Under the pieces are notes generated by a model. The model worked only from the letters and a program-made list of their open reading frames with translations. It ran no database searches and had not been told where the DNA came from. A program made the translations under genes and the position numbers. 64,000 nucleotides of DNA from Eublepharis macularius (Eukaryota; Chordata; Lepidosauria; Squamata; Eublepharidae): positions 22,379,232-22,443,231 of the forward strand of contig NC_072794.1 in NCBI RefSeq assembly GCF_028583425.1. The letters run 5' to 3'. Within the stretch, counting starts at the first letter, position 1. Each line of letters starts with the position of its first letter. Below are positions 2,400 to 64,000 of the stretch, one piece after another.

Positions 2400-2880
2400 C
2401 TCAAACCTCCCAGTGGGAGGTAGGCTCATTGGGAGGTAGACCTGGCACTCATCTTGCTTGTTGTCCTCGCATGCACTCCTGGGCTATGCAATGATATCAC
2501 TTCTGGGAAGTGACATCATTGCGCAGGGCATCATGCTGCCCCTGGGAGCACTCCCACGCTCCTCAGCGGGCTGATTTCGGCCCCAAATGGGACCAATTTG
2601 GCCCACTGCAGAGCATAGGAGAGCTGCCAGGAGGGCCCTAGAGAGCTCCTGTGCTTCACAGTCCCAAATTAAGCCCCAAACGGGCCCGATTTGGCCTGTT
2701 TGGGGCACAAATTGGCCCACTGCAGCACACAGGAGCGTGCAGTGCCACCTGGGAGTGCACCTTGGGAAGCACATCCCCCTCCGTTTCCCCCCCCCACTGG
2801 CCAGGTAAGTGGTGGCAGGGACAGAAGGTGGGAGTGGGGGATCCCCTGCCCCCAGTGGGGGACTGGCAACCCTAACCCAT
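2400..2880. repeat. GC-rich repeat with internal near-duplications, unidentified
   Basis: The words TTTGGCCCACTGCAGAGCA and ATTGGCCCACTGCAGCACA occur 110 bases apart, as do CCCCAAATGGG and CCCCAAACGGG. The stretch ends CTGGCAACCCTAACCC. All open frames here look like by-products of composition. Confidence 0.4.
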
Positions 2881-2884
2881 GTTG

Positions 2885-3330
2885 ATGCTCGGAGGACATG
2901 CTCTCCACTTGCCTTGAGCCTTCTGCCTAAGGGTAAACTGCCTTTTTATTTAGACTCCTTGGTTAGCCCAAAGTTATGTAGACCCTTTATGCACTGACGA
3001 CTCAATTGCCTCTTTTCAATAATATTGCTGGATCGTCAGATCGGTTAGGCCCTTGTCCTCTCCAGTCAGTCGACTCTCTTGTACATATTCTCTTGCAGTG
3101 TCCTTATGTATCTCAGTCTAGGCTAAAATGGATTATGCCATGCTTTGATAAATGGACTATATTTCTTCTAGCGACATTAGAGCAAAAGGTTCAATACCTC
3201 TTAGAGGATTCTGATCCTAAACATACTTATTTTGTTGTTTGATTTCTAGAGGCTGCAGAGAACTGTTGAAGAGAGGTGTTTTTAGATACGGCGGGCTTTA
3301 TTTAAGTTTTTCAGTTTTATTGTTCAAGAC
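2885..3330 (+). repeat. LINE remnant (C-terminal end of RT ORF)
   Basis: 3006-3242 translates with VDSLVHILLQCPYVSQSRLKW, the Cys/His pattern (HxLLxCP) found after the RT domain in CR1/L2/RTE-type LINEs. Only the last 80 codons or so are recognisable. Confidence 0.45.
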
Positions 3331-3554
3331 TTTAGTCTAAGAACAGGGGGATGAAAAGAAAGATTTCCTTTGTAGAATGGCAGGCACAGGCTTTCTGAGA
3401 CAAAGTAGGCCATTTCTTCTGCAATCCTATACAGAAATCAAAGGGTTTAGACTGGAATTTCTGCATAGGGTTGCATTGTACAGAAAGCAGCGCGCAACCC
3501 TAAGCAAGTCTACTCTGAAGTCATTTTTTATTAAATGACACTTACTGCCTGGAA

Positions 3555-3685
3555 AGTTTTAGGTTGGTAGCCGTGCTGGTCTGCAGTAGAACAGCAGGAT
3601 TTGAATTCAGTGGCACCTTAGAGACCATCAAGACTGGTTGGTCTTATAGTCTTTAAGGTGCCACTGGGCTGAAATTCTGCTGCCT
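3555..3685. repeat. Short fold-back repeat (family A type)
   Basis: TTGAATTCAGTGGCACCTTA and its near complement (AAGGTGCCACTGGGCTGAA) face each other around 3635. Confidence 0.5.
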
Positions 3686-3734
3686 GGAAAGCGTTCTTGG
3701 GATTGCAGTCATAGATTACTAATATGGTTGTTGT

Positions 3735-3994
3735 CAGGGCTTTTTTTCTGGGAAAAGAGGTGGTGGAACTCAGTGGGTTGCCCTCGGAGAAAATGGTCAC
3801 ATGGCTGGTGGCCCCGCCCCCTGATCTTCAGACAGAGGGGAGTTTAGATTGCCCTCCGCGCCGCTGAGCGGCGTGGAGGGCAATCTAAACTCCCCTCTGT
3901 CTGGAGATCAGGGGGCGGGGCCACCAGCCATGTGACCATTTTCAAGAGGTTCCGGAACTCCGTTCCACCACGTTCCTGCTGAAAAAAAGCCCTG
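3735..3994 (+). mobile_element. hAT-like fold-back MITE, copy 1
   Basis: Starts CAGGGCTTTTTTTC and ends GAAAAAAAGCCCTG; GTTGTTGT is duplicated on both sides (3727-3734, 3995-4002). The inside is a long palindrome around GCCCTCCGCGCCGC.. with arms containing GGTGGCCCCGCCCCCTG. No coding capacity. 8-bp duplications and CAGGG ends fit hAT. Confidence 0.85.
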
Positions 3995-4002
3995 GTTGTT
4001 GT

Positions 4003-7000
4003 GAATTTGTATAATTGGTGTGTGTATGCATAAGGTATTCCAATTGCACAAATTATAAATATAGTCATAAAGAAACACACAAAAATAAACAGACGTGTGA
4101 AAATTTAAAGTCAGATTTTTGTAACATCCTTGTCAATGCTCATTCTCCATTCACATGCACCCATTCGTGTAAGTTTGCTCTCACAAGCTCAGCTTGTACC
4201 CCATTCATACATGAACCACATACCCCATTCATACTTACCACTTATCCCTCCCCTTCCTTGCACATTTGTAGACAGCCATCAATAACCAAGGTCACTGCTA
4301 ATATACAATTGGTAACATTGTACAGTTAAAATATTTGCAACTACAGTATCATTTATGGAGATTCTTATTTCTCAACCTTTGTTGGTGGAATTCCTTTGCA
4401 GGATATTAGCGGCAGCGTCAAGGAAAGTGTGACAGGCTGTGTGCACAAACGCATCCAAAGATAAGTCTATGGAATTTGGTTGGGATTTTTGCAAGTGTCC
4501 TACCTTCAGTCATGAAAGAGTTAAATTGTTATTCTGTTTGTTTAGTCAGATAGCTAAGCATAGGACCACTTAGGCCTGGGGGCGGGGGCGGGGAGTTCCT
4601 GCATAGAAAGAGGAGTCTTTAGTCTTAATGAAGGAATCTAGGATTGTCTATTGGATGGGCCAGTTTATTGGGGTGCAATTAGCAACATATACTAAGGTTT
4701 TATTGCTCTTCTTTTCAGTCAGTCTAAGGGCTAAGCTACAAGTGACTAATGACACTTGAATGGCAAGTGGATCGCGTGGAGAGCAAGTGGAGGGCAAGTG
4801 AACAGGGAGCATTACACTTGCCTGGCAAGTGAACAGACTCACGTGTATTCCTCCCTGTTCACTTGCCCTCCACTTGCACTCTACTGGCAAGTGAACAGGG
4901 AGGAATACACATGAGTCTGTTCACTTGCCAGGCAAGTGTAATTCGTCACTTGTAGCTTGGCTCTCAGTTTCTCTCTCTAAGCTCCTAGTCTAGCCATCAA
5001 GATGTAGTTATTTAGCTCTTCTTTATTTTTCTTACCAAATGTACCCTTTTTCCTTGTTATGTAGTAAAGTATTTTTATAGAGCTAAACCCACAGAAGTCT
5101 GCCTACTTATTTCCAATGCGCTGTTATCAAACTCTGCGACCTTACGTACCCCTTTTTAACCTACACCTGTCAACCAATTTTCATGCTCGCTCTTCTCCGT
5201 TCTGTTTTCTACCAGATGCCACTTCCATCAGATCAGAAATTGTCACTTAAAAGTAGCATTGATCTTTTTGAAGCAGCTTAATATGAAGAAGTCAGAAAAA
5301 TTTCCACGTGCTCAACCTGTGTGCACCAGATGTCTGTTAATGGCACAGCAGCATGGCCAAAAAAAGGGGGGGGCGGCAACCTGAAGTAGATTTCTTGTGA
5401 ATGTTTCCTTGCTGATCAATAGAGTTAGGCCCAAAGAAGATGAGACCGAAGAACCACATGTCTGTATCTAAAGTAGGAACGGGGGCCTATTTACTAAAAC
5501 CAGAACATGCAGGTAAGAGGAGCTTGTAGGCAAGGGGAGGTCTGTGGTGCAGAGCATCAGGGCAGGACATGTGCGTCCTGCACTCTGCAGTTAGGACAGT
5601 CCGGTTTCCTCAAGTTATATATATCTTGGACCTTGTGGACCAATTGATCCAGTAAGGGAGGCTTCCTAGGGCTCAGCTTAAATAGGCTGGGAGAAAAATT
5701 GGTCTCAGTTGCACTTCCAGCAGGTGCTGAAGTCCCTAAGACTGCAATGGGGATTGGCCAGAATCTTGCAAGGAAGTACTATGCGTAGCACCGTGCTTTG
5801 AATCTACAGGGAGGTTGCGTGTGGCCTGTCTGGCACTTTGCCTCCTTTGTGCCACCTTAGCCTGGGCTTTCCACCACCACTGTTCCTGAGGAGTGGGAGA
5901 GGGTCCTGGGGGAGGGGGATACAGACCCAGGTTCAAGTCCTGCCCAGCAGAGGCCTAGCAGCTAACTTGTCTCTGGCAGGCTCTGACAATGTGGACTCTG
6001 ATGCCACTCGTACATCCTCAACTGGTACCTCTACAGTGCTGGGACCCTCTGATCCTCCACAAATCCTCACCTGGGCTGCTTCTGGAGGATTCGGAGATGG
6101 AGTACCTGAGCAGATCAGAGGGGGTAATGACAAGGGGAGTTCTGCCCTGCGGAGAATGCTGAGAAGGGGAAACTAAACTCTGCCCTTCTCCTCTACCACC
6201 TCTTGATCTGCTCTATTCTTTTGTAAATCTCTTCCAGATGAGATACAATAGTGAAATAAGAGAGGCTGAACGAACAGGGAAGCGATAGAATGCAGCAATT
6301 TAAAGCTAAGAAGCAGGTCAGGTTTAGTTCCTCGTGCCCGTTTTGTTAAAAAAAAGACCTTTCCCCACCTTCCTCAAATATGAATGGGTGGACATGTATA
6401 CAAATGCACATGGATCCCCCACCACTACTAGTTTGGCCCCCAGCATTTCAGATCTCGATAAGCGCATCTTGTTTGGACATACTGCCTCTTCCTAGTACTC
6501 CATCGCCAGCCAGTAAAAAGCAGTTGCGAACCTTCACAAAGTAAAAGGGGAAAACTGCATTTCAACCTAGCATTGGATGTGGATCTTAAAAGAACCTTGT
6601 AGCTCTCCCAAGTTAAAAGGTCGGACCAGGATATCTCGCTGTATTTGGTGGTACCTTTTATATGTTTGTCTGAGTTTCTCCAGTGTGCTCCCAGTGGCAC
6701 TGATAAGAGCAGGATTAAGTTTACACCGGTGAAAAGTTACATTAGCCAAACGTGATAGAAAGATATACCTGGGCCAGGGTTTCACCTTGGCCGTGTAGGC
6801 TGAGCTGCATGCACCACAGCCAATCCCATTTCTCTTAGACCAAGAGCCATCCGTCTTTTCATGCACAGGACCCACCTTTAATCAAAGGCTGCACCACTGT
6901 TGAGTTTTGTACCATATTTGCTGTTCGCTTTTCTTTCAGGTTCTGAGAGCAAGAGATCACTAGTCTTTAACCCTTTAATAGCACTACAGAAGGGACAACA

Positions 7001-52214: not shown

Positions 52215-52596
52215 CATCTTCGTTCTTCTGTGCCTCCACACATGGGACTGCGCAGGCGCAGGCCAGCCACCGGAAGATTTTTCATCGCTTTCCTCAGCTC
52301 CGAAGGGGCCGTTGGGTGCGCGCCTCAGCGACCGTTTCCCGCCCAAACGGTCATGTGTCCATTGGCGACCAACGACCCCTTCCCTCAGTTCTCTTCTTGC
52401 CGCCGCTAGAAGGGAACGTCTGCTTCGCAGCTCCATGCTTTGTAGTGATTGTTACTTCGTGATTGATATTTTGGTTTTGATACTTGGATTTCGGACTTGG
52501 CTTACTCTTCTTCTTGCTGATTTGGACGGACTTTGGACTCGGTGTGTATTGACTCGGACTGTTATTCGACGGCGCGTATTGCTGAACCCCTTAAAC

Positions 52597-54759
52597 ATGG
52601 CCTCTAAGGCCTTATTCAAGCACTGTGCTCAGTGCCAGACAAAGATGGCCCAAACAGATGGGCATGATCTGTGCCTTTTTTGCCTTGGGGAAGGTCATAT
52701 TGTCCCAACGTGTAAGATCTGCCAGAAGTTCACCCATAAGGCCAGACAGGAGAGGTCTGCGCGCTTGAAGGCATCCCTGTGGCAGAAAGTGTTGGATGGA
52801 GAGGAGACCTCCAGGCCCCCTTTGGTGGTGAGCAAAACTCCGTTGTCCTCCCCAAAGGCTGCCCTTAACTCCTCGGCCGAACGGCATTCACAAGCGGGCT
52901 CTGTGGCTTCTGCTAAGTCGGTGTCGACATCTCGACCGGCGAGTATAGCAGCACCAAAAGCGGGTTCACAAGTGGCGATGTCTCCGAAATCGCCGAGAAA
53001 AAAGGCGTCGTCGAGGCTGGATCCAAAGAAGTCGGTTTCGGGATTGGATCCGATGGGGTCGGATCCTACCTGCCTGTCGACTCCGACGCCGGATCCGAAG
53101 GCCGCTGCAGCACCGAGACCACACTCCGCTGGCAAGAAGTCCTCCACCAAAAGGGCGTCGGATCCGAGAGCCTGCTCGGAACCGCCGTCGAAGAAGCCGA
53201 AGAAGTCCAAACATCGACACTCTCGGTCCCCACGGCGCAGGTCTGCTGATGAGGTAGTGCTAGTTTCTCCACGCACGCCTTCCCCTCATCTGAACTCGCC
53301 AGACCGTTCTGCTCCGGAGGAAGTACCGGATCTGGGTACATATGTTGTGGTTTCGAGTGCTCCGTCGCCGGAACCGAGCCCGGCTGCCCCTTGTCGGATC
53401 CGATGCACACCCAGGTAGCGCTCCTCCGCATCTCCAGCTTCCTCCACTCGGAGTCGACGCCCTGTCTCCGATGTGGAAAGCGTCGGTTCCGAGCGTTCCT
53501 TGGCTTCCCGGCACCGACAGGCCTCCTATATTCCACCTCCTTACCACTGTCAATGGAGTGGGGCTCCTGCGGGGTATGACTCCTCGGATCCAAGGCCATC
53601 AACATCCAGGCAGCGTGAGTGGCTACCTCCACCGTTTCCAGCTGATGAGGTGTCGGTTCCTGCTTCTGATGAGGAGGAGGCTGCTGTTGGCTACGAGTGT
53701 GGCTCTGAGTCCTTGTTGGAACCGTCTCCGGATGACAATGTGGCTCCCAGTACGAGTTCCCCGTATGAGGATCTCCATATCTACGCTGACCAGATGGCCC
53801 GTATGGCAAAGGCGTTGGAAATTGATATCTCTTCAGCCACGCCTAAGACGAAGGACAAGCTCCTGTGCCGCATCTATGGCGACAACCCGGCTACGGTGGG
53901 TTTTCCCATGTTGGAGGGCGTAGAGGAGATAGTGGAGAAGGTGTGGAAGGTGCCTTCAGATCTGCCAGCTACATCGAAGCGCATTGAGCAAATGTATAAA
54001 ATCAAGCAAGGCACATGGCAATCGCTTGTCAAGCATCCTCCACCTTCATCCCTGATTGCTGAGGAGATCCAGCACCGTCGGTCAGGTTCCTCTTCCGTCC
54101 CGCCAGACAAGGAGGGGAAGAAGATGGACGCCCTGGGCAGGCGCCAATACTCCATCTCGGCCCTGGCCCTCCGTATAGCCAACTACCAAACCATCATGGC
54201 TGTCTATCAGCTCTACCTGTGGGAGAAGCTGACGCCTTATGTCGCTGACTTGCCTGCAGATAAGAAGGCGGTGGTGTCCCTGCTGCAAAACGAAGCCATT
54301 CGCCTCTCAAAGCAGCAGATGAATGCGGGGAGCCATGCAGCTGATACTGCGGCCCGTGGTATGTCATCAGCGGTGATCCTGAGACGGCACTCTTGGCTCC
54401 AGTCGACAGCTCTCCCGCAGGAGGTGAAGGCCAAAATTGAAAATCTGCCTTTTGAAGGGGACTCCCTCTTCTCATGGATTACCATGGATGAGGCGCTGAA
54501 GAAGAAGAAGGAGGATAGGCAGACAGCTCGGTCATTGGGAGTGACCTCGGCGGACAGGTCTGCTTTCAAGCCACGGTACCCCACGAGATACAACCTGTAC
54601 CAGTACCATGGGAGATACCAACAGCGTCCCTACTTCCATCAATACCCTGCTTTTCAGCGCCATTACACTCCCACGCAGCAACCCAAGAGGCATAGGCCTT
54701 TCAAGCCCCGTCCATCTCAGCCTCCTGCTCAGCAAAAAGGAGCAGGGAGGCAATTCTGA
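52597..54759 (+). pseudogene. DIRS outer copy: gag-like region (fossil)
   Basis: Homologous along its length to the inner gag: same start (MASKALFKHC), same Cys/His cluster, same Pro/Ser-rich middle and same conserved helical region (PYEDLHIYADQMARMAKALE). The reading frame is broken about once. Confidence 0.82.
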
Positions 54760-54779
54760 TGGGATGAACCAGTCACAGC

Positions 54780-56416
54780 CCTAACTTTCTCGGACAGGCT
54801 GAAGCCTTTCCTATTTGAATGGGAGTCAATAACATCTGACTCATGGGTCTTAACAATTGTAAACAAAGGATATGGGCTGGAATTCACTGAACTGCCTATG
54901 TGTATCTCACCGTTAAAGGCTGTGAATAATACCATGGCTGAGCTAGAGGATGAGATCATATCTCTCTTGGCCAAGGGTGCTGTGGAGGAGGTGGCATACG
55001 AGGAGTCTGAGAAAGGCTTCTTTTCTCGTTTCTTTCTAGTCCCCAAAAAGGATGGGGGGGTTTACGCCCCATTCTAGATTTAAGGGGTCTTAATGCCTTT
55101 CTAAAAGTGACAAAGTTTAAGATGGTCACGCTGTCTGCTGTAATTTCCTTGCTAAAGAAAGGGGATTGGTTTGCTGTCCTTGACTTGAAGGACGCCTATT
55201 TCCATGTTGGAATACTAGAGGAGCACAGAAAGTTTCTGGGCTTCGTTTACAAGCGAAGGGTGTTCCATTATAGAGTGCTTCCCTTTGGCCTATCCACAGC
55301 GCCACAAGTATTTACCAAGTGTGTGGCTCCTGTGGTGTCTTTCCTTCGAGAGAAAGGCTGTGCCATCTTTCCTTACCTCGATGATTGGCTCATCATGGCA
55401 GACTCTGAGGCTGGGCTTGTGCACTCTGTAGAGTTAGTACTGAGCACATGCAAACGTTTGGGTCTGCTGGTAAATTTGGATAAGTCAAAACTGGTACCCA
55501 GCTGTAAGGTCTCTTACATTGGTGCCGTATTAGACTCAGTTGAGGGTAAAGCACTACTTCCACAGGAAAGAGCTAGGTCTCTTAAGGGATTGATTTCCAT
55601 GTTCAAGAGAAATCGTTTCCAATCTGTGCGCATGATACAATGCTTACTGGGTCATATGGCAGCTGCTGCCTCAGTAGTACCCTTTGCAAGACTGCATATG
55701 CGTCCGCTTCAAAATTGGTTTGTGTGGAGGTACGATGCCACCCTCCGTCTCAAGTTATCCATACCTAGGGTCATTCTATCCTCCCTTGACTGGTGGCTGT
55801 CAGATGACAACTTGTTTATGGGGACCCTGTTTGGCTATCTGCATCCTGAGGTTACAGTAACCACTGATGAGTCCCTGCAGGGATGGGGTGCCTATTGTGG
55901 TGCTGTGTGCGTACAGGATGTATGGTCAGAAAGGGAAAGAAACCTGCATATTAACGTTCTTGAACTAAGAGCTATTCGTTTTGCACTTGTGTCCCTTGCA
56001 GCACTTCTACAAAACCGTCAGGTGTTGGTGCAGACGGACAACACAACTGCCATGTATTACCTAAACCAGCAAGGGGGCACAGCATCTATGATTCTCTGCA
56101 GGGAGGCCACGCTCGTTTGGCAATGGGCGATCCAGAATGGTGTGATGCTTCGGGCAATACACGTAGCGGGATCAGACAATGCTCGGGCAGATGCCCTGAG
56201 CAGAGTGCACATGTTGGACCACGAGTGGGAACTAAACACAGAGTACATTGGGCCGATCTTCCAAATGTGGGGCCAACTGAGCATAGATGTGTTTGCAACG
56301 TCAGCAAACACCAAGGCCCAGATATTTTGTTCAAGGGCGGGGAGCGACCCCCTCTCTATTGGGGATGCCTTCCAATTTATGTGGACCCACAGGTTGCACT
56401 ATATGTTTCCACCATT
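54780..56416 (+). pseudogene. DIRS outer copy: RT-RNase H region (fossil, continues at 62513)
   Basis: Carries the RT blocks LDLKDAYFHV, LPFGLSTAP and YLDDWLI and the RNase H blocks NVLELRAI and QTDNTTAMYY. Broken about once, apart from being cut by the nested element; the remaining pol end lies at 62513-62741. Confidence 0.85.
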
Positions 56417-56611
56417 CATCTTCGTTCTTCTGTGCCTCCACACATGGGACTGCGCAGGCGCAGGCCAGCCGCCGGAGAATTTTCTAGAGCTTCCATGGCT
56501 CCGAAGGGGCCGTTTGTCGCGCGCCTCAGCGACCGTTTTCCCGCCCAAACGGTCACGTGATCCTCCAGCGACCAACGGCCCCTTCCCTCAGTTCTCTTCT
56601 TGCCGCCGCTT
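56417..56611 (+). repeat. DIRS inner copy: left inverted terminal repeat
   Basis: 195 bp, beginning CATCTTCGTTCTTCTGTG; its reverse complement recurs at 62287-62480 with scattered differences. The same sequence begins the outer copy at 52215. It probably includes the element promoter. Confidence 0.9.
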
Positions 56612-56795
56612 GGAGAGAACGTGAGCTTCGTTGCTCTGTGCTTTTGTGCTTCGTACTTTACTCTAACTGATTGCTTGGCTTTTGACTTCGGACTTCGTGA
56701 CCTCGACTATTCTTTGGATTTCGCTTTGGACTTTGACGTGGACTCGGTAATTTGACTCGGACTGTTCTTGACCCTTCTTTCGCGTGCCCCTGAAG

Positions 56796-58955
56796 ATGGC
56801 CTCTACGGCTCTCTTCAAGCATTGCCTGAAATGCCACACTAAAATGGCCAAATCCGATGGCCATGATTTGTGCCTTTTTTGCTTGGGAGAGACCCACAAT
56901 GTCTCGGCCTGTAGGATCTGCCAGGGTTTCACCAGCAAGGCCCGGCAGGATCGCAAGGCCCGGTTAAATTCCTCGCTGTGGCAGAAGGTCATGTCGGAGG
57001 GAACCCCGTTACGTCCGTCCAAGGCCGGCCCTAGCCCCTCTGCCGAACGGCAATCAAGAGCTGGCTCAGTGGCCTCCGCGAGGTCGGGGTCGAAACCGCT
57101 TCCCCCGAGTGCCTCGGCGTCGAGAGCGGCCTCTCCAGCGCAGGGACCGGTGCGGCCGCCCCGTAGCGCGTCATCTACCAGGTCGGATCCGAGACCAGCG
57201 TCGGAACCAAGGATCCTGGTACCGAGTCCCCGGTCGGAACCGACGACCGGTTCGATCCCGATCAAGGCGAAGAGGTCGAAGCCGAGGTCCCCTTCGAAGG
57301 CGAGGAGCGCGTCGGTTCCGAGGTCTTCTTCGGAGCCAGCGAAGAAGAAGAAGAAGACCAAGCATCACCGGTCGCCGCGTCCCGCTCCTCAGGAAGAGGT
57401 CATCGTGCTTCCTCACACGCCTTCCCCTCATCTGGGCTCCCCGGAGCCAGAAGACATCTCCGTGCCGGTGCCGGATCCGATGGCCTTCGAGACGGTGCCC
57501 GCAGAATTCTCGTCGGGGCCGGAGCCGAGCCCGCGCCGTCGGAGCCGACCATCGCTTCCCCTTCGGTCGCCGAGGCTGGAACCGAGCCCGTCCCCTCGTC
57601 GGAGCCGTCCGTCGCCTGCCCGTCCGTCTCCACCTCCGGTCGGTCGTGAGCGTCATGGTTCCGGGGACAGTGTCCGATCAGTCCGGTCCGCTGCGTCCCG
57701 ACATCAACAGGCTTCCCGCCTCCCCTCGCCATACCGTTGCCAATGGGAGGGGGCACCTGCGGGCTTCTCCGTGTCGGAACCGAGGCCTTCGACATCGAGG
57801 TCGGCGTGGGCTCCCCCTCCGCTCCCGGTTCCGGAATCCCAGCTCGGTTCCGATGAGGAGGATGTGGAGAGCTTTGGTGGCTGCCAGTCGGAGTCCTGGT
57901 CCGAACCATCGCCAGCTGAGGAGCTAGTGCCATCTGCGGACTCGCCATTCGAGGACCTCCACATCTACGCCGACCAGATGGCTAGGATGGCCAAGGCTCT
58001 CGAGATGGACATCTCTTCGGCAGTCCCCCAGACCAAGGACAAGCTCCTCAAACGTATTTACGGGGACAATCCAGCGTACGTTGGCTTCCCCATGCTCGAG
58101 GGTATTGAGGAGATTGTGGAGAAGGTGTGGCAGGTGCCCTGTGATCAACCGCCAACATCCAAGCGCATCGAGCAGCTTTACAAGATCAAGCAGGGCACCT
58201 GGCCGGCGTTGGTGAAGCACCCTCCACCTTCCTCCTTGGTCACAGAGGAGTTCAACCCCCGACGATCGGGTCACTCCTCGGTGCCTGCCGATAAGGAGGG
58301 CAAGAAGCTGGATGCCATGGGCAGGCGCCAGTACATTGTCTCTTCACTGGGTCTGAGGATCGCCAACTACCAGACCATCATGGCAGGGTACCAGCTGTAC
58401 CTCTGGGAGAAGTTGGCATCCTACACTCGAGACCTCCCACCTGAGCAGAAGGCTGTCGTCTCCCTGTTGCAGACAGAGGCTGTCAGGCTGTCTAAGCAGC
58501 AGATGAATGCTGGGAGCCACGCTGCTGACACTGCTGCTCGGGGAATGGCTTCGGCGGTGGTCCTCAGGCGCCACTCCTGGTTGCGGTCTACGGCCCTGTC
58601 CCAAGAGGTGCGTTCCAGGGTGGAGAGCATGCCCTTTGAAGGGGACTCGCTGTTCTCCAAATCGACCGACGAGACCCTGAAGAAAAAGAAGGAGGACCGG
58701 CAGACGGCGCGGTCCTTGGGTCTGGCTCCAGCGGACAAGCCCTCCTCCAGGTCACGGTACGCTCCCCGGTCTGGCCCTTACCATTACCAGGGCAGATACC
58801 AGCCACAGCGGCCGGGCTACCAGCAGTATCCTGCCTACCAGCAGCGGCCTTACCCTCCCGCACAACAGCAGAGGAGGCGTCGGCCCTTCAAGCCTCGTCA
58901 GGCACAGCAACCGGCCCAGCAGAAGGATCAGCAGGGCGCCGGGAGGCAGTACTGA
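56796..58955 (+). CDS. DIRS inner copy: gag-like ORF
   Basis: About 719 aa from the ATG in the context GAAGATGG. N-terminal Cys/His cluster (HCLKCHTKMAKSDGH then CLFCLGETHNVSACRIC) suggests a zinc-binding knuckle; a long Pro/Ser/Arg-rich middle follows, then a conserved helical region (about 370-640) and a Tyr/Gln/Pro/Arg-rich tail likely to bind nucleic acid. Position and make-up fit the DIRS gag protein, which packages the element RNA. The ORF begins after the 195-bp left repeat and a leader. The outer copy carries a recognisable homologue. Confidence 0.82.
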   Translation: MASTALFKHCLKCHTKMAKSDGHDLCLFCLGETHNVSACRICQGFTSKARQDRKARLNSSLWQKVMSEGTPLRPSKAGPSPSAERQSRAGSVASARSGSKPLPPSASASRAASPAQGPVRPPRSASSTRSDPRPASEPRILVPSPRSEPTTGSIPIKAKRSKPRSPSKARSASVPRSSSEPAKKKKKTKHHRSPRPAPQEEVIVLPHTPSPHLGSPEPEDISVPVPDPMAFETVPAEFSSGPEPSPRRRSRPSLPLRSPRLEPSPSPRRSRPSPARPSPPPVGRERHGSGDSVRSVRSAASRHQQASRLPSPYRCQWEGAPAGFSVSEPRPSTSRSAWAPPPLPVPESQLGSDEEDVESFGGCQSESWSEPSPAEELVPSADSPFEDLHIYADQMARMAKALEMDISSAVPQTKDKLLKRIYGDNPAYVGFPMLEGIEEIVEKVWQVPCDQPPTSKRIEQLYKIKQGTWPALVKHPPPSSLVTEEFNPRRSGHSSVPADKEGKKLDAMGRRQYIVSSLGLRIANYQTIMAGYQLYLWEKLASYTRDLPPEQKAVVSLLQTEAVRLSKQQMNAGSHAADTAARGMASAVVLRRHSWLRSTALSQEVRSRVESMPFEGDSLFSKSTDETLKKKKEDRQTARSLGLAPADKPSSRSRYAPRSGPYHYQGRYQPQRPGYQQYPAYQQRPYPPAQQQRRRRPFKPRQAQQPAQQKDQQGAGRQY

Positions 58956-59129
58956 CGGGTCACGCCAGCCGTATCCCCGAACTTTTCGGACAGACTTAGT
59001 CCACTCCTCTCTGAGTGGGAGTCAATAACATCTGACTCATGGGTCTTAACTATTGTTGAACTGGGATACGGGCTGGAGTTTGTTGAGCTGCCTAGATGCA
59101 GTTCACCCCTGACAGCTGTCAATAACACT

Positions 59130-60848
59130 ATGGCCGAGCTGGATGCGGAGATCGTGTCGCTCTTGGCCAAGGGTGCTGTGGAAGAATTGCCCTATGAGGA
59201 TTCTGTAAAGGGTTTCTTCTCTAGGTTCTTCCTGGTCCCCAAGAAGGATGGGGGCTTACGTCCCATTTTAGATCTGAGGGGCCTTAATGCCTACCTCAAG
59301 GTGACCAAATTCAAAATGGTTACGTTGGCGGCTGTGATCGCCTTGCTGAAACAGGGAGATTGGTTTGCGGTTCTTGACTTAAAGGACGCATACTTTCACG
59401 TGGGCATACGGAAGGAGCACAGGAAATACCTGAGCTTTGTTTACCGGCAAAGGGTTTTCCGGTATAAGGTGCTCCCCTTTGGCCTGTCCACTGCCCCACG
59501 AGTGTTCACTAAATGTGTGGCCCCTGTGGTTTCCTTCCTACGGGAAGAAGGCTGTACCATCTTTCCGTACCTCGATGACTGGCTCATCGTGGCTGAATCG
59601 GAGTCTAGGCTGGTGCAGGACATTGGCTTGGTACTTAGCACTTGCCAACGCCTGGGGCTCCTGGTGAACTTGGAGAAATCCAAACTGGTGCCCAGCTGCA
59701 AGGTGTCCTACATTGGCGCACTCTTAGACTCTGTGGAGGGTAAGGCCCTGCTCCCCTTGGAGAGGGCTCGGTCCCTACGGGGCCTAGTGTCCATGTTTAA
59801 AAGGAACCGGTTCCAGTCTGTGCGCACTATCCAGTGCTTACTAGGGCATATGGCAGCGGCCACCTCTGTGGTGCCTTTTGCTAGGCTGCGTATGCGCCCG
59901 CTCCAGAACTGGTTTGTGCGGAGGTACGATGCTCTGCTACACCCTCCGTCCCTCAAATTCTCTGTCCCAAGGGTCATCCTCTCCTCCTTGGACTGGTGGC
60001 TGTCTGATGACAACTTGTTTAGAGGGACCCCTTTTGGGTATCAACACCATGACATCACGGTTACCACTGATGCCTCTCTGTTGGGATGGGGGGCTTACTG
60101 TGGTGATGTGTCTGTGCAAGATGTCTGGTCTGACAGGGAAAAGACCCTCCATATCAATGTGCTTGAACTAAGGGCCATTCGTTTCGCACTTGTGTCTCTT
60201 ACAGCACTGCTGAAAAATCGTCAGGTCTTGGTGCAGACGGACAACACGACTGCCATGTACTACGTGAATCAGCAGGGGGGCACAGTGTCCATGGCCCTGT
60301 GCCGGGAAGCCACACTCACTTGGCAGTGGGCTATCAAGAACGGCGTGTCGCTCCGTGCTATACACGTGGCTGGGTCAGACAATGCCCGGGCAGATGCCCT
60401 CAGCAGGGTCCCTTTACTAGACCACGAGTGGGAACTGAACGGAGAGTGCATTGGGCTTATCTTCCAGATGTGGGGTCATCCGGTGATAGACGTGTTCGCC
60501 ACTGCGGCGACCACCAAGGCCCACACGTTCTGTTCCAGGGCAGGGAGCGACCCCCTCTCTATTGGGGATGCCTTCCAGTTTACGTGGACGCAGGGCTTGC
60601 ACTACATGTTTCCTCCGTTCCCCTTGATTCCCAGGGTCCTGTGCAAGATAGAGGAGGACGGGACGGACTGCATCCTAGTGGCCCCCTTCTGGCCACGGCA
60701 GGTTTGGTTCCCGAAGCTCCTGCGGATGTCCCAACGGACATATGTGAGTCTGCCCCCTCGGCAAGACCTTCTCCTAAACGGGAGCCTAGTCCACCACGAT
60801 CCCAGGAAGCTGCACCTAACGGCTTGGCGGATCGTTCCTCCCCTGTAG
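59130..60848 (+). CDS. DIRS inner copy: reverse transcriptase-RNase H ORF
   Basis: 572 aa from the first Met, but similarity to the outer copy extends about 57 codons upstream in the same frame as gag, so the real protein start is uncertain. RT motifs: LDLKDAYFHV, LPFGLSTAP and the catalytic YLDDWLI (about 149-155). The RNase H part has TDASLLGWGAY, NVLELRAI and QTDNTTAMYY. After it comes VIDVFAT...RAGSDPLSIGDAF...MFPPFPLIPRVL, a block usual in DIRS pol downstream of RNase H that may correspond to the methyltransferase-like region of the family. The 3' third overlaps the recombinase ORF in another frame. Confidence 0.9.
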   Translation: MAELDAEIVSLLAKGAVEELPYEDSVKGFFSRFFLVPKKDGGLRPILDLRGLNAYLKVTKFKMVTLAAVIALLKQGDWFAVLDLKDAYFHVGIRKEHRKYLSFVYRQRVFRYKVLPFGLSTAPRVFTKCVAPVVSFLREEGCTIFPYLDDWLIVAESESRLVQDIGLVLSTCQRLGLLVNLEKSKLVPSCKVSYIGALLDSVEGKALLPLERARSLRGLVSMFKRNRFQSVRTIQCLLGHMAAATSVVPFARLRMRPLQNWFVRRYDALLHPPSLKFSVPRVILSSLDWWLSDDNLFRGTPFGYQHHDITVTTDASLLGWGAYCGDVSVQDVWSDREKTLHINVLELRAIRFALVSLTALLKNRQVLVQTDNTTAMYYVNQQGGTVSMALCREATLTWQWAIKNGVSLRAIHVAGSDNARADALSRVPLLDHEWELNGECIGLIFQMWGHPVIDVFATAATTKAHTFCSRAGSDPLSIGDAFQFTWTQGLHYMFPPFPLIPRVLCKIEEDGTDCILVAPFWPRQVWFPKLLRMSQRTYVSLPPRQDLLLNGSLVHHDPRKLHLTAWRIVPPL

Positions 60849-61864
60849 GCTTTACTGACGAGGTACAGAGGGTCCTCCTGAATGCCCGTCGGCCATCCAC
60901 TAGGCGCGCTTATGCGGCCAAGTGGCGCAGGTTTGAGCTCTGGGCACTTGCCAGAGGAGTGGTGCCTGACAGCAGTCCCTTGGGGGTTGTATTCGAGTAT
61001 TTGTGCCACTTGCGTGGCCTGGGCTTGAAGGTGTCCTCCCTCAAGGTACACTTGGCAGCGATATCAGCTGCTCACGCCCGAGTTGAGGGTGCTACGGTGT
61101 TTTCTCACCCACAATCCCGCCAGTTCCTTAAGGGCATGTACAATCTTTACCCACCTGTGTCGGCGCCAGTGCCTCAGTGGTCGCTGTCCTTGGTGCTCTC
61201 ACGTCTCATGTTGCCTCCATTTGAACCTATGGCTACATGCCCCTTGGATATGCTGTCCTACAAGGTAGCATTCTTGGTGGCCGTCACATCGGCCAGAAGG
61301 GTCAGTGAGCTGTCTGCACTGCGGTCTGACCCTCCCTTTCTTGTGTTTCATCCCAACAAGGTGGTCCTGCGTCCCTGCCTCGGGTTCCTGCCCAAGGTGG
61401 TGTCCGCCTTCCACCTCTCGCAGGATATCTCACTGCCTGCATTCTTTCCTCAACCTTCCTCTAAGGGGGAAAAGGCCCTTCATTCCCTAGACTTGAAGAG
61501 GGCCCTAGCCTATTACCTGGATAGGACGAAGGAATTCCGCTCCTGTCCTCACCTGTTTGTATGTTTTGGGGCCAAGGACAAGGGTAACAGGGCTTCCTCA
61601 CAGACCCTGTCTAGGTGGATTGTGACGGCCATTAGCAAGGCCTATTCCCTGGCAGGGGTGGCTTGCCCGCTTCATGTCAGAGCCCACTCCACGCGGTCCC
61701 AAGCATCCTCTTCGGCACTCCTCAGGGGGGTGCCCCTGGTTAACATTTGTAAAGCAGCCACATGGTCCTCTGCAGACACCTTTGTCAGGCATTACGCCGT
61801 TGATGTCAATGCGGAGCAGGATGTATCTGTGGCCAAGGCTGTCTTACACTCCCTTTTTTCCTAA
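60299..61864 (+). CDS. DIRS inner copy: tyrosine recombinase ORF
   Basis: Open from 60299 (521 aa), overlapping the RT-RNase H ORF by about 550 bases; the recombinase domain itself is roughly residues 190-521. N-terminal SAM-like part: RRAYAAKWRRFELWA. Catalytic pattern: Arg in TSARRVSEL, HxxR in AHSTRSQ, and the C-terminal Tyr in FVRHY, the R-H-R-Y set of tyrosine recombinases. In DIRS this enzyme inserts the circular cDNA without making target duplications. Confidence 0.9.
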   Translation: MPGSHTHLAVGYQERRVAPCYTRGWVRQCPGRCPQQGPFTRPRVGTERRVHWAYLPDVGSSGDRRVRHCGDHQGPHVLFQGRERPPLYWGCLPVYVDAGLALHVSSVPLDSQGPVQDRGGRDGLHPSGPLLATAGLVPEAPADVPTDICESAPSARPSPKREPSPPRSQEAAPNGLADRSSPVGFTDEVQRVLLNARRPSTRRAYAAKWRRFELWALARGVVPDSSPLGVVFEYLCHLRGLGLKVSSLKVHLAAISAAHARVEGATVFSHPQSRQFLKGMYNLYPPVSAPVPQWSLSLVLSRLMLPPFEPMATCPLDMLSYKVAFLVAVTSARRVSELSALRSDPPFLVFHPNKVVLRPCLGFLPKVVSAFHLSQDISLPAFFPQPSSKGEKALHSLDLKRALAYYLDRTKEFRSCPHLFVCFGAKDKGNRASSQTLSRWIVTAISKAYSLAGVACPLHVRAHSTRSQASSSALLRGVPLVNICKAATWSSADTFVRHYAVDVNAEQDVSVAKAVLHSLFS

Positions 61865-62038
61865 GGGAGTTTTGGAATGACTTTCTTGGCGTACCTGCTG
61901 GGTACCCTTGAGTGAAAGTGTGTATATATGTACCTGGGGGTGTGTATATATGTAAATATTGAGTATTTATGTGTCCTTACACAGTTTTTTACATAGATGT
62001 ATATATGCATATCTATTTATTGTTGTTCTTGTTTGTTC

Positions 62039-62044
62039 AATAAA
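62039..62044 (+). terminator. DIRS inner copy poly(A) signal
   Basis: AATAAA 175 bases after the recombinase stop and 52 bases before the ICR; the outer copy has AATAAA in the same place (63883). Confidence 0.6.
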
Positions 62045-62095
62045 ATTGTGTTGGACTTCACCCCCGCCTTCCTTATTGTGTGAAGCTTGGTACAC

Positions 62096-62187
62096 TCCCA
62101 TGTGTGGAGGCACAGAAGAACGAAGATGAAAACAGGGTTAACATACCTGTAACTTATGTTCATCGAGTTCTTCTGTGCTGACACACA
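62096..62187 (+). repeat. DIRS inner copy: internal complementary region (ICR)
   Basis: 62096-62128 is the exact reverse complement of the left end (56417-56449, 33/33), and 62129-62187 is the exact reverse complement of the right end (62454-62512, 59/59). Together they spell the two element ends joined head to tail, the template that DIRS elements use to complete their cDNA ends and close a circle. Confidence 0.93.
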
Positions 62188-62286
62188 ACCCTCCCTCCTA
62201 CCCCGCTGTGAACTCCAATGCACAATAATGTGATGGCTGTAACGGAAATTGGTGTTTTTAAGGTGTTATGGCTGAAGTGTGTTGGT

Positions 62287-62480
62287 CAAGCGGCGGCAAA
62301 GGAGAACTGAGGGAAGGGGCCGTTGGTCGCTGGAGGATCACGTGACCATTTGGGCGGGAAAACGGTCGCTGAGGCGCGCGACAAACGGCCCCTTCGGAGC
62401 CATGGAAGCTCTAGAAAATTCTCCGGCGGCTGGCCTGCGCCTGCGCAGTCCCATGTGTGTCAGCACAGAAGAACTCGATG
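62287..62480 (-). repeat. DIRS inner copy: right inverted terminal repeat
   Basis: Reverse complement of the left repeat. The outermost 30 bases differ in a consistent way from the left end (GTTCATCGAGTT version instead of CATCTTCGTT), so the two ends are distinguishable. Confidence 0.9.
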
Positions 62481-62512
62481 AACATAAGTTACAGGTATGT
62501 TAACCCTGTTTT
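62481..62512 (+). repeat. DIRS inner copy: right-end extension, 32 bp
   Basis: A 32-bp tail past the right inverted repeat, absent from the left end. DIRS-1 is known to carry a short extension (about 27 bp) at one end. Its complement sits at 62129-62160 in the internal complementary region. Confidence 0.85.
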
Positions 62513-62533
62513 CCCGCTGATACCAAGGGTGTT

Positions 62534-63754
62534 GTGCAAAATAGAGAAGGACAATGCAGATTGCATTCTGGTAGCACCCTTCTGGCCAAGACAAGTGTGG
62601 TTCCCCAAACTGTTGCAGATGTCCAATCGGACATATGTGAGTCTGCCTCCCCGGCAGGATCTTCTGCTGAACGGGAGCTTGTTCCACCACGAGCCCAGGA
62701 AGTTGCACCTGTCTGTCTGGCGGATTCTACCCCGCCTGTAACTTATTCTGAGCAAGTGGAGAAAGTCATGCTAAATGCAAGGAAACTCTCCTCTAGACAG
62801 GCTTACAAAGCTAAGTGGCTTAGGTTTGAGGCTTGGGCAGTTTCAAAGAACGTGGTGCCTGTTAGTAGCCCCTTAGGGTTCGTCTTTGACTATTTATGTC
62901 ATTTGAAAGACCAAGGGCTTAGGGTTACCTCCCTAAAGGTACATCTTGCGGCTATTTCCGCATTTCACGAGCAGGTTGACGGTAGTACAGTGTTCTCACA
63001 CCATAAATCTCGTCAGTTTTTAAAGGGGATGTTTAATCTTTACCCGCCTGTGTCACCACCAGTGCCTCAATGGTCTCTCTCCCTAGTACTATCTAGGTTG
63101 ATGCTGCCTCCCTTCGAACCGTTAGCTACATGCACTTTGGACTTACTGTCTTACAAAGTAGCGTTTCTGGTGGCTGTAACATCTGCTAGAAGGGTTAGCG
63201 AGTTAGCAGCACTCAGGGCTGACCCCCCATTTCTTCTTTTCCATAAGAATAGGGTGGTCCTGCGGCCGTGCCTTAAGTTTCTGCCCAAGATGGTGTCCAC
63301 CTTCCACCTGTCGCAGGAGATCACGTTGCCTGTGTTCTTTCCGAATGCATCTTCTAAAGGGGAAAATGCCCTTCACACCTTAGATTTGAGGAGGGCCTTA
63401 GCCTTTTATTTGGACAGGACTAAGGACTTCCGTAGCAGTCCCCATCTTTTTGTCTGCTTTGGAAGTAAGGACAAGGGTCATAAGGCATCGTCCCAAACAG
63501 TGTCTCGATGGATAGTGTCGGCCATTTCTAAGGCCTATGCTCTGGCTGGGGTGGATTGTCCACTGGGGGTCAGTGCCCACTCCACACGCTCTCAGGCAGC
63601 TTCGTCAGCGCTTGTCAAGGGTGTACCGCTTGTCAACATCTGCAAAGCGGCTACGTGGTCGTCTGCTGACATGTTTGTGAAACATGCTATGGATGTTAAT
63701 GCAGAGCAAGATGTTGCTGTGGCCAAGGCAGTCCTTCACTCCTTGTTTGCATAA
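62534..63754 (+). pseudogene. DIRS outer copy: tyrosine recombinase region (fossil)
   Basis: 406-aa open stretch closely matching the inner recombinase: RQAYKAKWLRFEAWA, TSARRVSEL, HSTRSQ. It is cut from its upstream part by the nested element, so I treat it as non-functional. Confidence 0.82.
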
Positions 63755-63938
63755 CAGTACACTTGAATGCTTTGCTCCAATGATGGAGACTGAAACTCTG
63801 TATGTGTATATACGTATATAGTTTATTGAACAACTCTAATGTTTCTTGAACAAGTTATCTTGTGCTAATATTTTTGGTACATAATAAAATTGAGTTGGAT
63901 TTCACCCCACCTTCCTTATTGTGTGAAGCTTGGTACTC

Positions 63939-64000
63939 TCCCATGTGTGGAGGCACAGAAGAACGAAGATGAAAACAGGGTTAACATACCTGTAACTTAT
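63939..64000 (+). repeat. DIRS outer copy: internal complementary region (cut by window end)
   Basis: 63939-63971 is the exact reverse complement of the outer left end (52215-52247); 63972-64000 continues with the same 29 bases found at 62129-62157 in the inner copy. Confidence 0.88.

Follow-up and report, generated by a model that had tools for sequence, protein, structure and literature searches.

The internal complementary region of a DIRS1-like retrotransposon in Eublepharis macularius and possible footprints of its replication

The structure of DIRS elements has been known since 1985 (Cappello et al., as cited in PMC3266345). In the published architecture and model, an internal complementary region (ICR) restores the ends that are missing from the transcript (PMC3266345, PMC5633606), and both this ICR model and the completion and integration of DIRS ends are described as not fully proven (PMC5633606). 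The terminal repeats are described as having a divergent and a conserved zone, with a shared stretch of at least 10 nucleotides (PMC3266345). DIRS-1 of Dictyostelium discoideum (DIRS1-2 in Table 3 of PMC3266345) resembles the element described here in its inverted repeats, its single extension at the right end, its ICR with a circle junction, its reverse transcriptase (RT) and tyrosine recombinase, and its insertion into elements of its own kind, but it is 3,793 bp long, has a longer conserved repeat of 304 nt and TTA at its ends (PMC3266345, PMC5633606).

The window, as the whole stretch analysed is called below, comprises 64,000 nucleotides of E. macularius (contig NC_072794.1, positions 22,379,232 to 22,443,231). 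With high confidence, its positions 62096-62187 can be regarded as the ICR of a DIRS1-like tyrosine-recombinase retrotransposon, which would template the lost ends, with the circle closed there and the element inserted at an NTT site. The locus and its copies present an exact identity of three sites, divergent and conserved repeat zones, a rule for the target, many genomic copies and a second family, from which the templating, the circle and the recombinase step are deduced. The structure itself is ordinary and well known; two footprints in the copies, a one-sided TT and an extra G, are unexpected.

The element, its ICR and its genomic copies

The features of the locus are collected in Table 1. 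Under the definition of DIRS1-like elements given in PMC3266345, the inner element has inverted terminal repeats with 173-nt core arms (56424-56596 and 62302-62474 in the repeat finder) that are 98% complementary, an ICR that is complementary to both ends and whose halves meet at the circle junction, and an extension of one end, the right one, whose 32 nt are found otherwise only in the ICR. The gag-like, RT/RNase H and recombinase ORFs lie between the repeats and contain no internal stops. RT and RNase H are present, the RNase H match falling under its cut-off, and the recombinase, whose Phage_integrase match is likewise under the curated cut-off, carries the HSTR residues and the later Tyr; its comparison with solved structures gave no significant relative (best match E 0.5). 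The weak LAP2alpha match of the gag-like ORF is also seen in frog DIRS elements (PMC9210276).

Target-site duplication is absent from the flanks of 35 copies, from the nested site compared with its homologue and from the paralogous empty sites of two other insertions (L037, and L031 at 65.6% identity). A Pfam search at E up to 5, with speed filters that drop weak matches, gave no methyltransferase domain. Such a domain after RNase H is common among DIRS elements but not universal. The set of ORFs, the ICR, the single right extension and the lack of target duplication identify the element as DIRS1-like; an Ngaro or PAT-like element was considered and rejected, since these require split direct repeats and the repeats here are inverted and accompanied by an ICR. 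The element is flanked by A56414 on the left and by TT at 62511-62512 on the right, and this TT, judging from other copies, probably belongs to the target. An AATAAA lies at 62039, just upstream of the ICR, and an RNA ending there would not include the ICR, so that replication would need a longer transcript.

Table 1. Features of the nested DIRS elements, with positions in the window
Feature	Position	Strand	Basis
Inner DIRS1-like element, inserted DNA TTCATC...CCTGTT, 6096 bp	56415..62510	+	ends from 35 independent copies and nested target
Left end copied in ICR, 33 nt (32 where the run has 4 or 5 G)	56417..56449	+	exact match
Left inverted terminal repeat, inner border approximate	56417..56597	+	repeat finder and copy alignment
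G run at inner edge of ICR-templated zone; 3, 4 or 5 G elsewhere	56446..56448	+	copy comparison
gag-like ORF, 723 aa, LAP2alpha match below cut-off	56784..58955	+	ORF and profile search
RT and RNase H ORF, 572 aa; RVT_1 3.8e-25, RT_RNaseH 0.0014	59130..60848	+	ORF and Pfam
Tyrosine recombinase ORF, overlapping frame, 521 aa; HSTR motif; Phage_integrase 5e-4	60299..61864	+	ORF and Pfam
Left ICR, exact complement of left end	62096..62128	-	33/33
Right ICR, exact complement of right end and extension	62129..62187	-	59/59
Right inverted terminal repeat, inner border approximate	62302..62480	-	repeat finder and copy alignment
Right end copied in ICR, 59 nt	62454..62512	+	exact match
Right extension, 32 nt	62481..62512	+	ICR comparison and copies
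Outer DIRS element, left part; left end 52215-52247 equal to that of inner	52215..56414	+	sequence comparison
Outer DIRS element, right part; extends past window to about 64358 (L009:858)	62511..64000	+	sequence comparison
Outer ICR, cut by window edge; whole in L009:439-530, identical to that of inner	63939..64000	-	sequence comparison

In a direct script comparison, 62096-62187 equals the reverse complement of the left end followed by that of the right end at 92 of 92 positions, while the same halves in opposite order match at 22 of 92. The repeat finder independently returned the arms 62128-62187 and 62454-62513 at 100%, and 56415-56452 and 62093-62130 at 97%. The two ends of the element are unlike (CTC versus TGA, TTC versus GA), and each half of the ICR carries the bases of its own end. 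An earlier note on this DNA had thus correctly seen and named a DIRS circle-junction region that preserves both versions of differing ends, and its positions, including those of the 32-bp right extension, were accurate. At its last base, the 33rd (A56449), the left match holds only in copies with a run of three G (7 of 35), and in the other 28 it is 32 bases long.

The genome searched comprises 2.24 Gb in 72 contigs. With three mismatches allowed, a 37-base core of the junction occurs at 1,209 sites and its reversed control at none, which excludes a match at chance level. The 181 bases around the ICR gave 1,173 candidates, and all 40 that were scored, among them the window's own locus and its two duplicates, are identical to it over 181 of 181 bases. 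The description of the region as unusually clear in a vertebrate genome is therefore not supported, all the more as the same architecture is tabulated for Anolis, Xenopus, stickleback and pufferfish (PMC3266345). These 40 loci, the window's and 39 others, were chosen by ICR identity, so the conservation of the ICR among them is partly selected and that of the ends is unselected. Both ends were recognised in 37 of them (L025 is without a right end, L043 and L046 without a left end), and removal of the two duplicates (L029 and L047) leaves 35 independent insertions, the window's included. The 34 non-window copies diverge by 2.2-4.6% from the window copy. The left end (32 nt) is exact in 34 of the 35 copies (33 of the 34 non-window) and the right end (57 nt, core excluded) in 29 (28 of 34), with one mismatch in five copies and three in one. 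Extending the comparison to other genomic copies, as had been proposed, thus recovered an ICR with matching ends in many of them, at loci picked by their ICR.

Nesting of two families and the agreement of the three sites

The inner element sits inside an older DIRS element that reaches from 52215 to about 64358. The inner and outer elements are identical in the ICR (92/92), the left end (33/33) and the right end (59/59), but next to the ICR they agree at only 122 of 184 (66%) and 72 of 101 (71%) positions, gaps excluded, in the gag part at 1400 of 2090 (67%; inner positions 367-2540) and in the pol part at 1344 of 1710 (79%; inner positions 2714-4432). In the well-aligned part, five substitutions separate the outer element's own inverted repeats and one those of the inner element, which makes the outer element the older. 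The outer recombinase ORF (62534-63754) is without the Tyr of the inner HYAVDVN and reads KH-AMDVN, so that the outer copy is probably inactive by itself.

By this comparison, the exact set of three sites appears to be kept across two families. That the three sites agree solely through youth, having been alike at the start with none mutated yet, is quite improbable: the inner copy is young, its repeats being one substitution apart in the well-aligned part, but two families with 67-79% coding identity share the ICR and both ends exactly while the neighbours of the ICR do not exceed 66% and 71%, and in 34 of 35 copies the fixed differences between left and right still follow the ICR. Recency as the sole cause of the identity was rejected because the outer family has the same 92 bases. 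The earlier note had taken the exactness as a sign of recent insertion; the youth of the inner copy stands, but the inference was overstated, since the older outer element has an identical, exact ICR and ends and the 34 other copies, for all their divergence, mostly keep exact ends. The exactness would be better explained by re-templating in each cycle together with sequence constraint than by youth alone. Within one element, re-templating keeps the three sites the same; equality between families needs sequence constraint or exchange between the families.

The nested pair occurs twice more in the genome with an identical inner element (L029, L047, L049-L052), on contig C5 at about 6-18 kb and on contig C1 at about 1.43-1.45 Mb. 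Compared in pieces of 700-800 bp, the flanks of the C5 copy (L029) are identical on both sides and so is the right flank of the C1 copy (L047), while the piece taken as the left border on C1 (L049) did not match. Mobilisation of the nested pair as one unit was considered; given the identical flanks, both of them on C5 and the right one on C1, the extra copies more likely stem from a very recent duplication or from duplication in the assembly. Such duplication accounts for two of the 40 loci, which are copies of the window's nested site, but that the identical copies in general are assembly duplicates or segmental duplications can hardly be entertained, as the 34 other two-ended copies have different flanks and differ by 2.2-4.6% from the window copy.

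Order of end restoration and the extra G

In the alignment of the repeats, left and right differ at fixed places in columns 1-29, and at these divergent sites every one of the 35 left ends, and all but one of the 35 right ends, equals its own ICR half. Inward of column 29 the two repeats are mostly equal. Variants present in at least two copies on both sides (columns 31, 84, 125 and 154) are common to both repeats in 35 of 35 copies, which indicates that each cycle makes one repeat from the other; singleton variants are mostly confined to one side. Column 30 is discordant in L014 through a small insertion beside the G run of the right repeat, and the G runs of that copy are equal when counted in a looser context. 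The sole exception in the divergent zone, L031, has a right repeat with the left version, and at least five more such pairs (3+2), left-type, in opposite orientation and about 6 kb apart, were seen by eye among 100 places listed, of 682 and of 268. Such ends would result if an already finished left end served as the template for the right repeat and the switch took place within a shared stretch. Against the ICR model, six of the 35 right ends differ from their own ICR by one or three bases besides the core.

The element probably uses its internal copy of the joined ends to rebuild them at each move. The ICR would be the template that restores both ends absent from the transcript, the left one first, via a switch at the 5' end of the RNA, after which the right repeat would be copied from the left repeat. 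The restored cDNA would be closed at the circle junction, and the element's tyrosine recombinase would insert it at an NTT site without target duplication, by strand exchange at one fixed point, N^TT. Malicki et al. (2020) are said to have reported linear single-stranded cDNA for DIRS, which fits the templating and puts a double-stranded circle in doubt.

The templated left end stops at CATGGG, where the copies have zero, one or two extra G. The runs are of equal length in both repeats, with three G in 7, four in 26 and five in 2 of the 35 copies, and a fixed context finds three G at 268, four at 682 and five at 44 places genome-wide (27%, 69% and 4% of 994, a total that includes members of other families, duplicates and right ends like that of L031). 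On a tree of the element body, the run needs nine changes for nine minority copies and carries no phylogenetic signal: all of 500 shuffled labellings need nine changes or fewer (mean 8.4) and all of 200 bootstrap trees give nine. The 214 informative body sites need one to seven changes, and since such multi-change sites imply that the copies recombine, the argument is somewhat weaker. The pattern suggests that many cycles reset the G run, doing so where the switch occurs and before the right repeat is copied.

Transcription may start at A56449, directly after the run, and the extra G would then reflect a template switch, associated with the cap, to the GGG that adjoins the ICR. When a retroviral enzyme switches from a capped RNA template to an rGrGrG acceptor, a single additional C is the usual result, and with uncapped RNA about 90% of reads are without an extra C (PMC6885630); the ICR presents GGG exactly at the switch point. 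Slippage in the G run, or register slips of CCC against GGG on the ICR strand, would do without the cap and deserve a probability a little under one half. In their favour, the variation lies in a homopolymer, a slip of register where the switch occurs would leave much the same trace, and the missing signal of one site counts less when body sites also need up to seven changes. On the other hand, length variants in the nine further 3- to 4-base runs of the repeat were confined, wherever the context could be located, to a single copy per side at most, a 4-G run has four G in 69 of 70 repeats (its context was not found in the remaining one), and the nine changes of the boundary run exceed those of any of the 214 body sites.

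The crossover point, the form of the intermediate and known systems

On the left, all 35 copies have NTT before CATC, with N being G in 22, A in 6, C in 5 and T in 2; on the right, all 35 read TGTT, followed by TT in 30, AT in 3 and TA in 2. The circle has T at N, which leaves N mostly unshared between circle and target. The empty site of L037, in a repeat with 176 places, reads GGG-AT-CTAA in all 40 strings listed, whereas the insertion reads GGG-TT-CATC on the left and TGTT-AT-CTAA on the right; its left TT therefore came from the circle and its right AT from the target. A distant paralogue of the L031 site (65.6% identical) has GAAAT-AT-ATGC, again with the target's AT. For L048, also with AT in its right core, a 73% paralogue in L025 reads TT and does not support a target origin of the AT, and the two copies with a right TA (L019 and L022) are without an empty site. 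Genome-wide, 199 right-type places (108+91) and 4 left-type places (2+2) are without the TT, mutated ICRs adding to both counts. Since the left pattern has 32 fixed bases and the right one 23, decayed left ends are missed more often, but pattern length is an unlikely cause of the fifty-fold gap, given that the 32 left bases are exact in 34 of 35 copies and that 994 left-type places were found in a fixed context. An equal split between left and right would have a probability of about 1e-53 if the places were independent, which, with duplicates among them, holds only roughly. At the target sites of the 35 copies, A or T stands at -10 in 32, C or T at +2 in 32, and G at +1 in none.

The core TT thus seems to be the circle's at the left end and the target's at the right end, which may be read as single-strand exchange, as a crossover fixed to one side is the expected trace of a one-strand exchange followed by replication. 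Integration of a conventional double-stranded circle through a staggered cut, with a core of 3 bp in common and a polarity arising from biased mismatch repair, is a serious competitor, if not quite an even bet: published models have a 3-bp junction identical to the genomic site (PMC3266345) and a double-stranded circular intermediate (PMC5941688), and the right core is TT in 30 of 35 copies. However, N is mostly unmatched (T in the circle against the target bases counted above), and a heteroduplex resolved at random should leave non-TT places about equally often on the two sides, in place of 199 against 4; a repair bias of that strength is possible but otherwise unindicated. By our reading of Table 3 in PMC3266345, 7 of 28 elements (AcDIRS1, AcDIRS2, AmDIRS2, BmDIRS1, NveDIRS6b, TnDIRS1a and XtDIRS2) start with NTT and end with another core, AcasDIRS1 differs at N, AmDIRS1 differs otherwise and BfDIRS2 looks opposite. 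Frog elements have TTT at both ends, probably needed for transposition (PMC9210276).

Both footprints, the extra G and the one-sided TT, could have arisen if the element is rebuilt as one single strand, by cap switch, ICR copying, fold-back and one-strand exchange, a proposal that we hold tentatively, at somewhat less than even probability. The RNA would start at the inner edge of the left ICR sequence; RT would run to its cap, add a C opposite it and switch to the GGG of the complementary ICR strand, copying the whole ICR through the circle junction. The strand would then fold back and copy its own left repeat into the right repeat, and an exchange of one strand at N^TT would link the folded single-stranded junction to the target. 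Folding of the 92-base junction gives, for each strand, a long hairpin whose spacers are unpaired (-23.4 and -20.7 kcal/mol, with none of 200 shuffles as good); this hairpin follows from the inverted repeats and is hence not independent evidence. Integron cassette insertion (attI x attC) offers a parallel in mechanism, with no homology claimed: there a tyrosine recombinase acts on a folded bottom strand and makes the crossing between bases 1 and 2 of a GTTRRRY core (PMC8876359), while single-strand exchange in DIRS is only proposed. In the excerpts of open-licence PMC literature consulted, no mention of the TT polarity or the extra G was found.

About a thousand copies in one genome amount to natural replicates of the DIRS reaction. 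From them it would seem that the left end is made first and the right repeat from the left one, that templates are switched at the cap site and that the crossover point is polar, and these readings make the unproven part of the DIRS model testable. A close likeness in tabulated values, not in sequence alignment, is to AcDIRS1 and AcDIRS2, DIRS1-like elements of Anolis carolinensis, which also have one right extension, a divergent followed by a conserved repeat and a left NTT (PMC3266345). They are 5.9-6.0 kb long with extensions of 26 and 28 nt, compared with 6,096 bp and 32 nt here; their divergent and conserved repeats measure 26 and 140, and 26 and 136, and their ICR halves 40-58 and 39-60, where the element described here has 33 and 59 (PMC3266345). 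Like some of its copies, both Anolis elements have another core at the right end, CAT in one and TGT in the other (PMC3266345).
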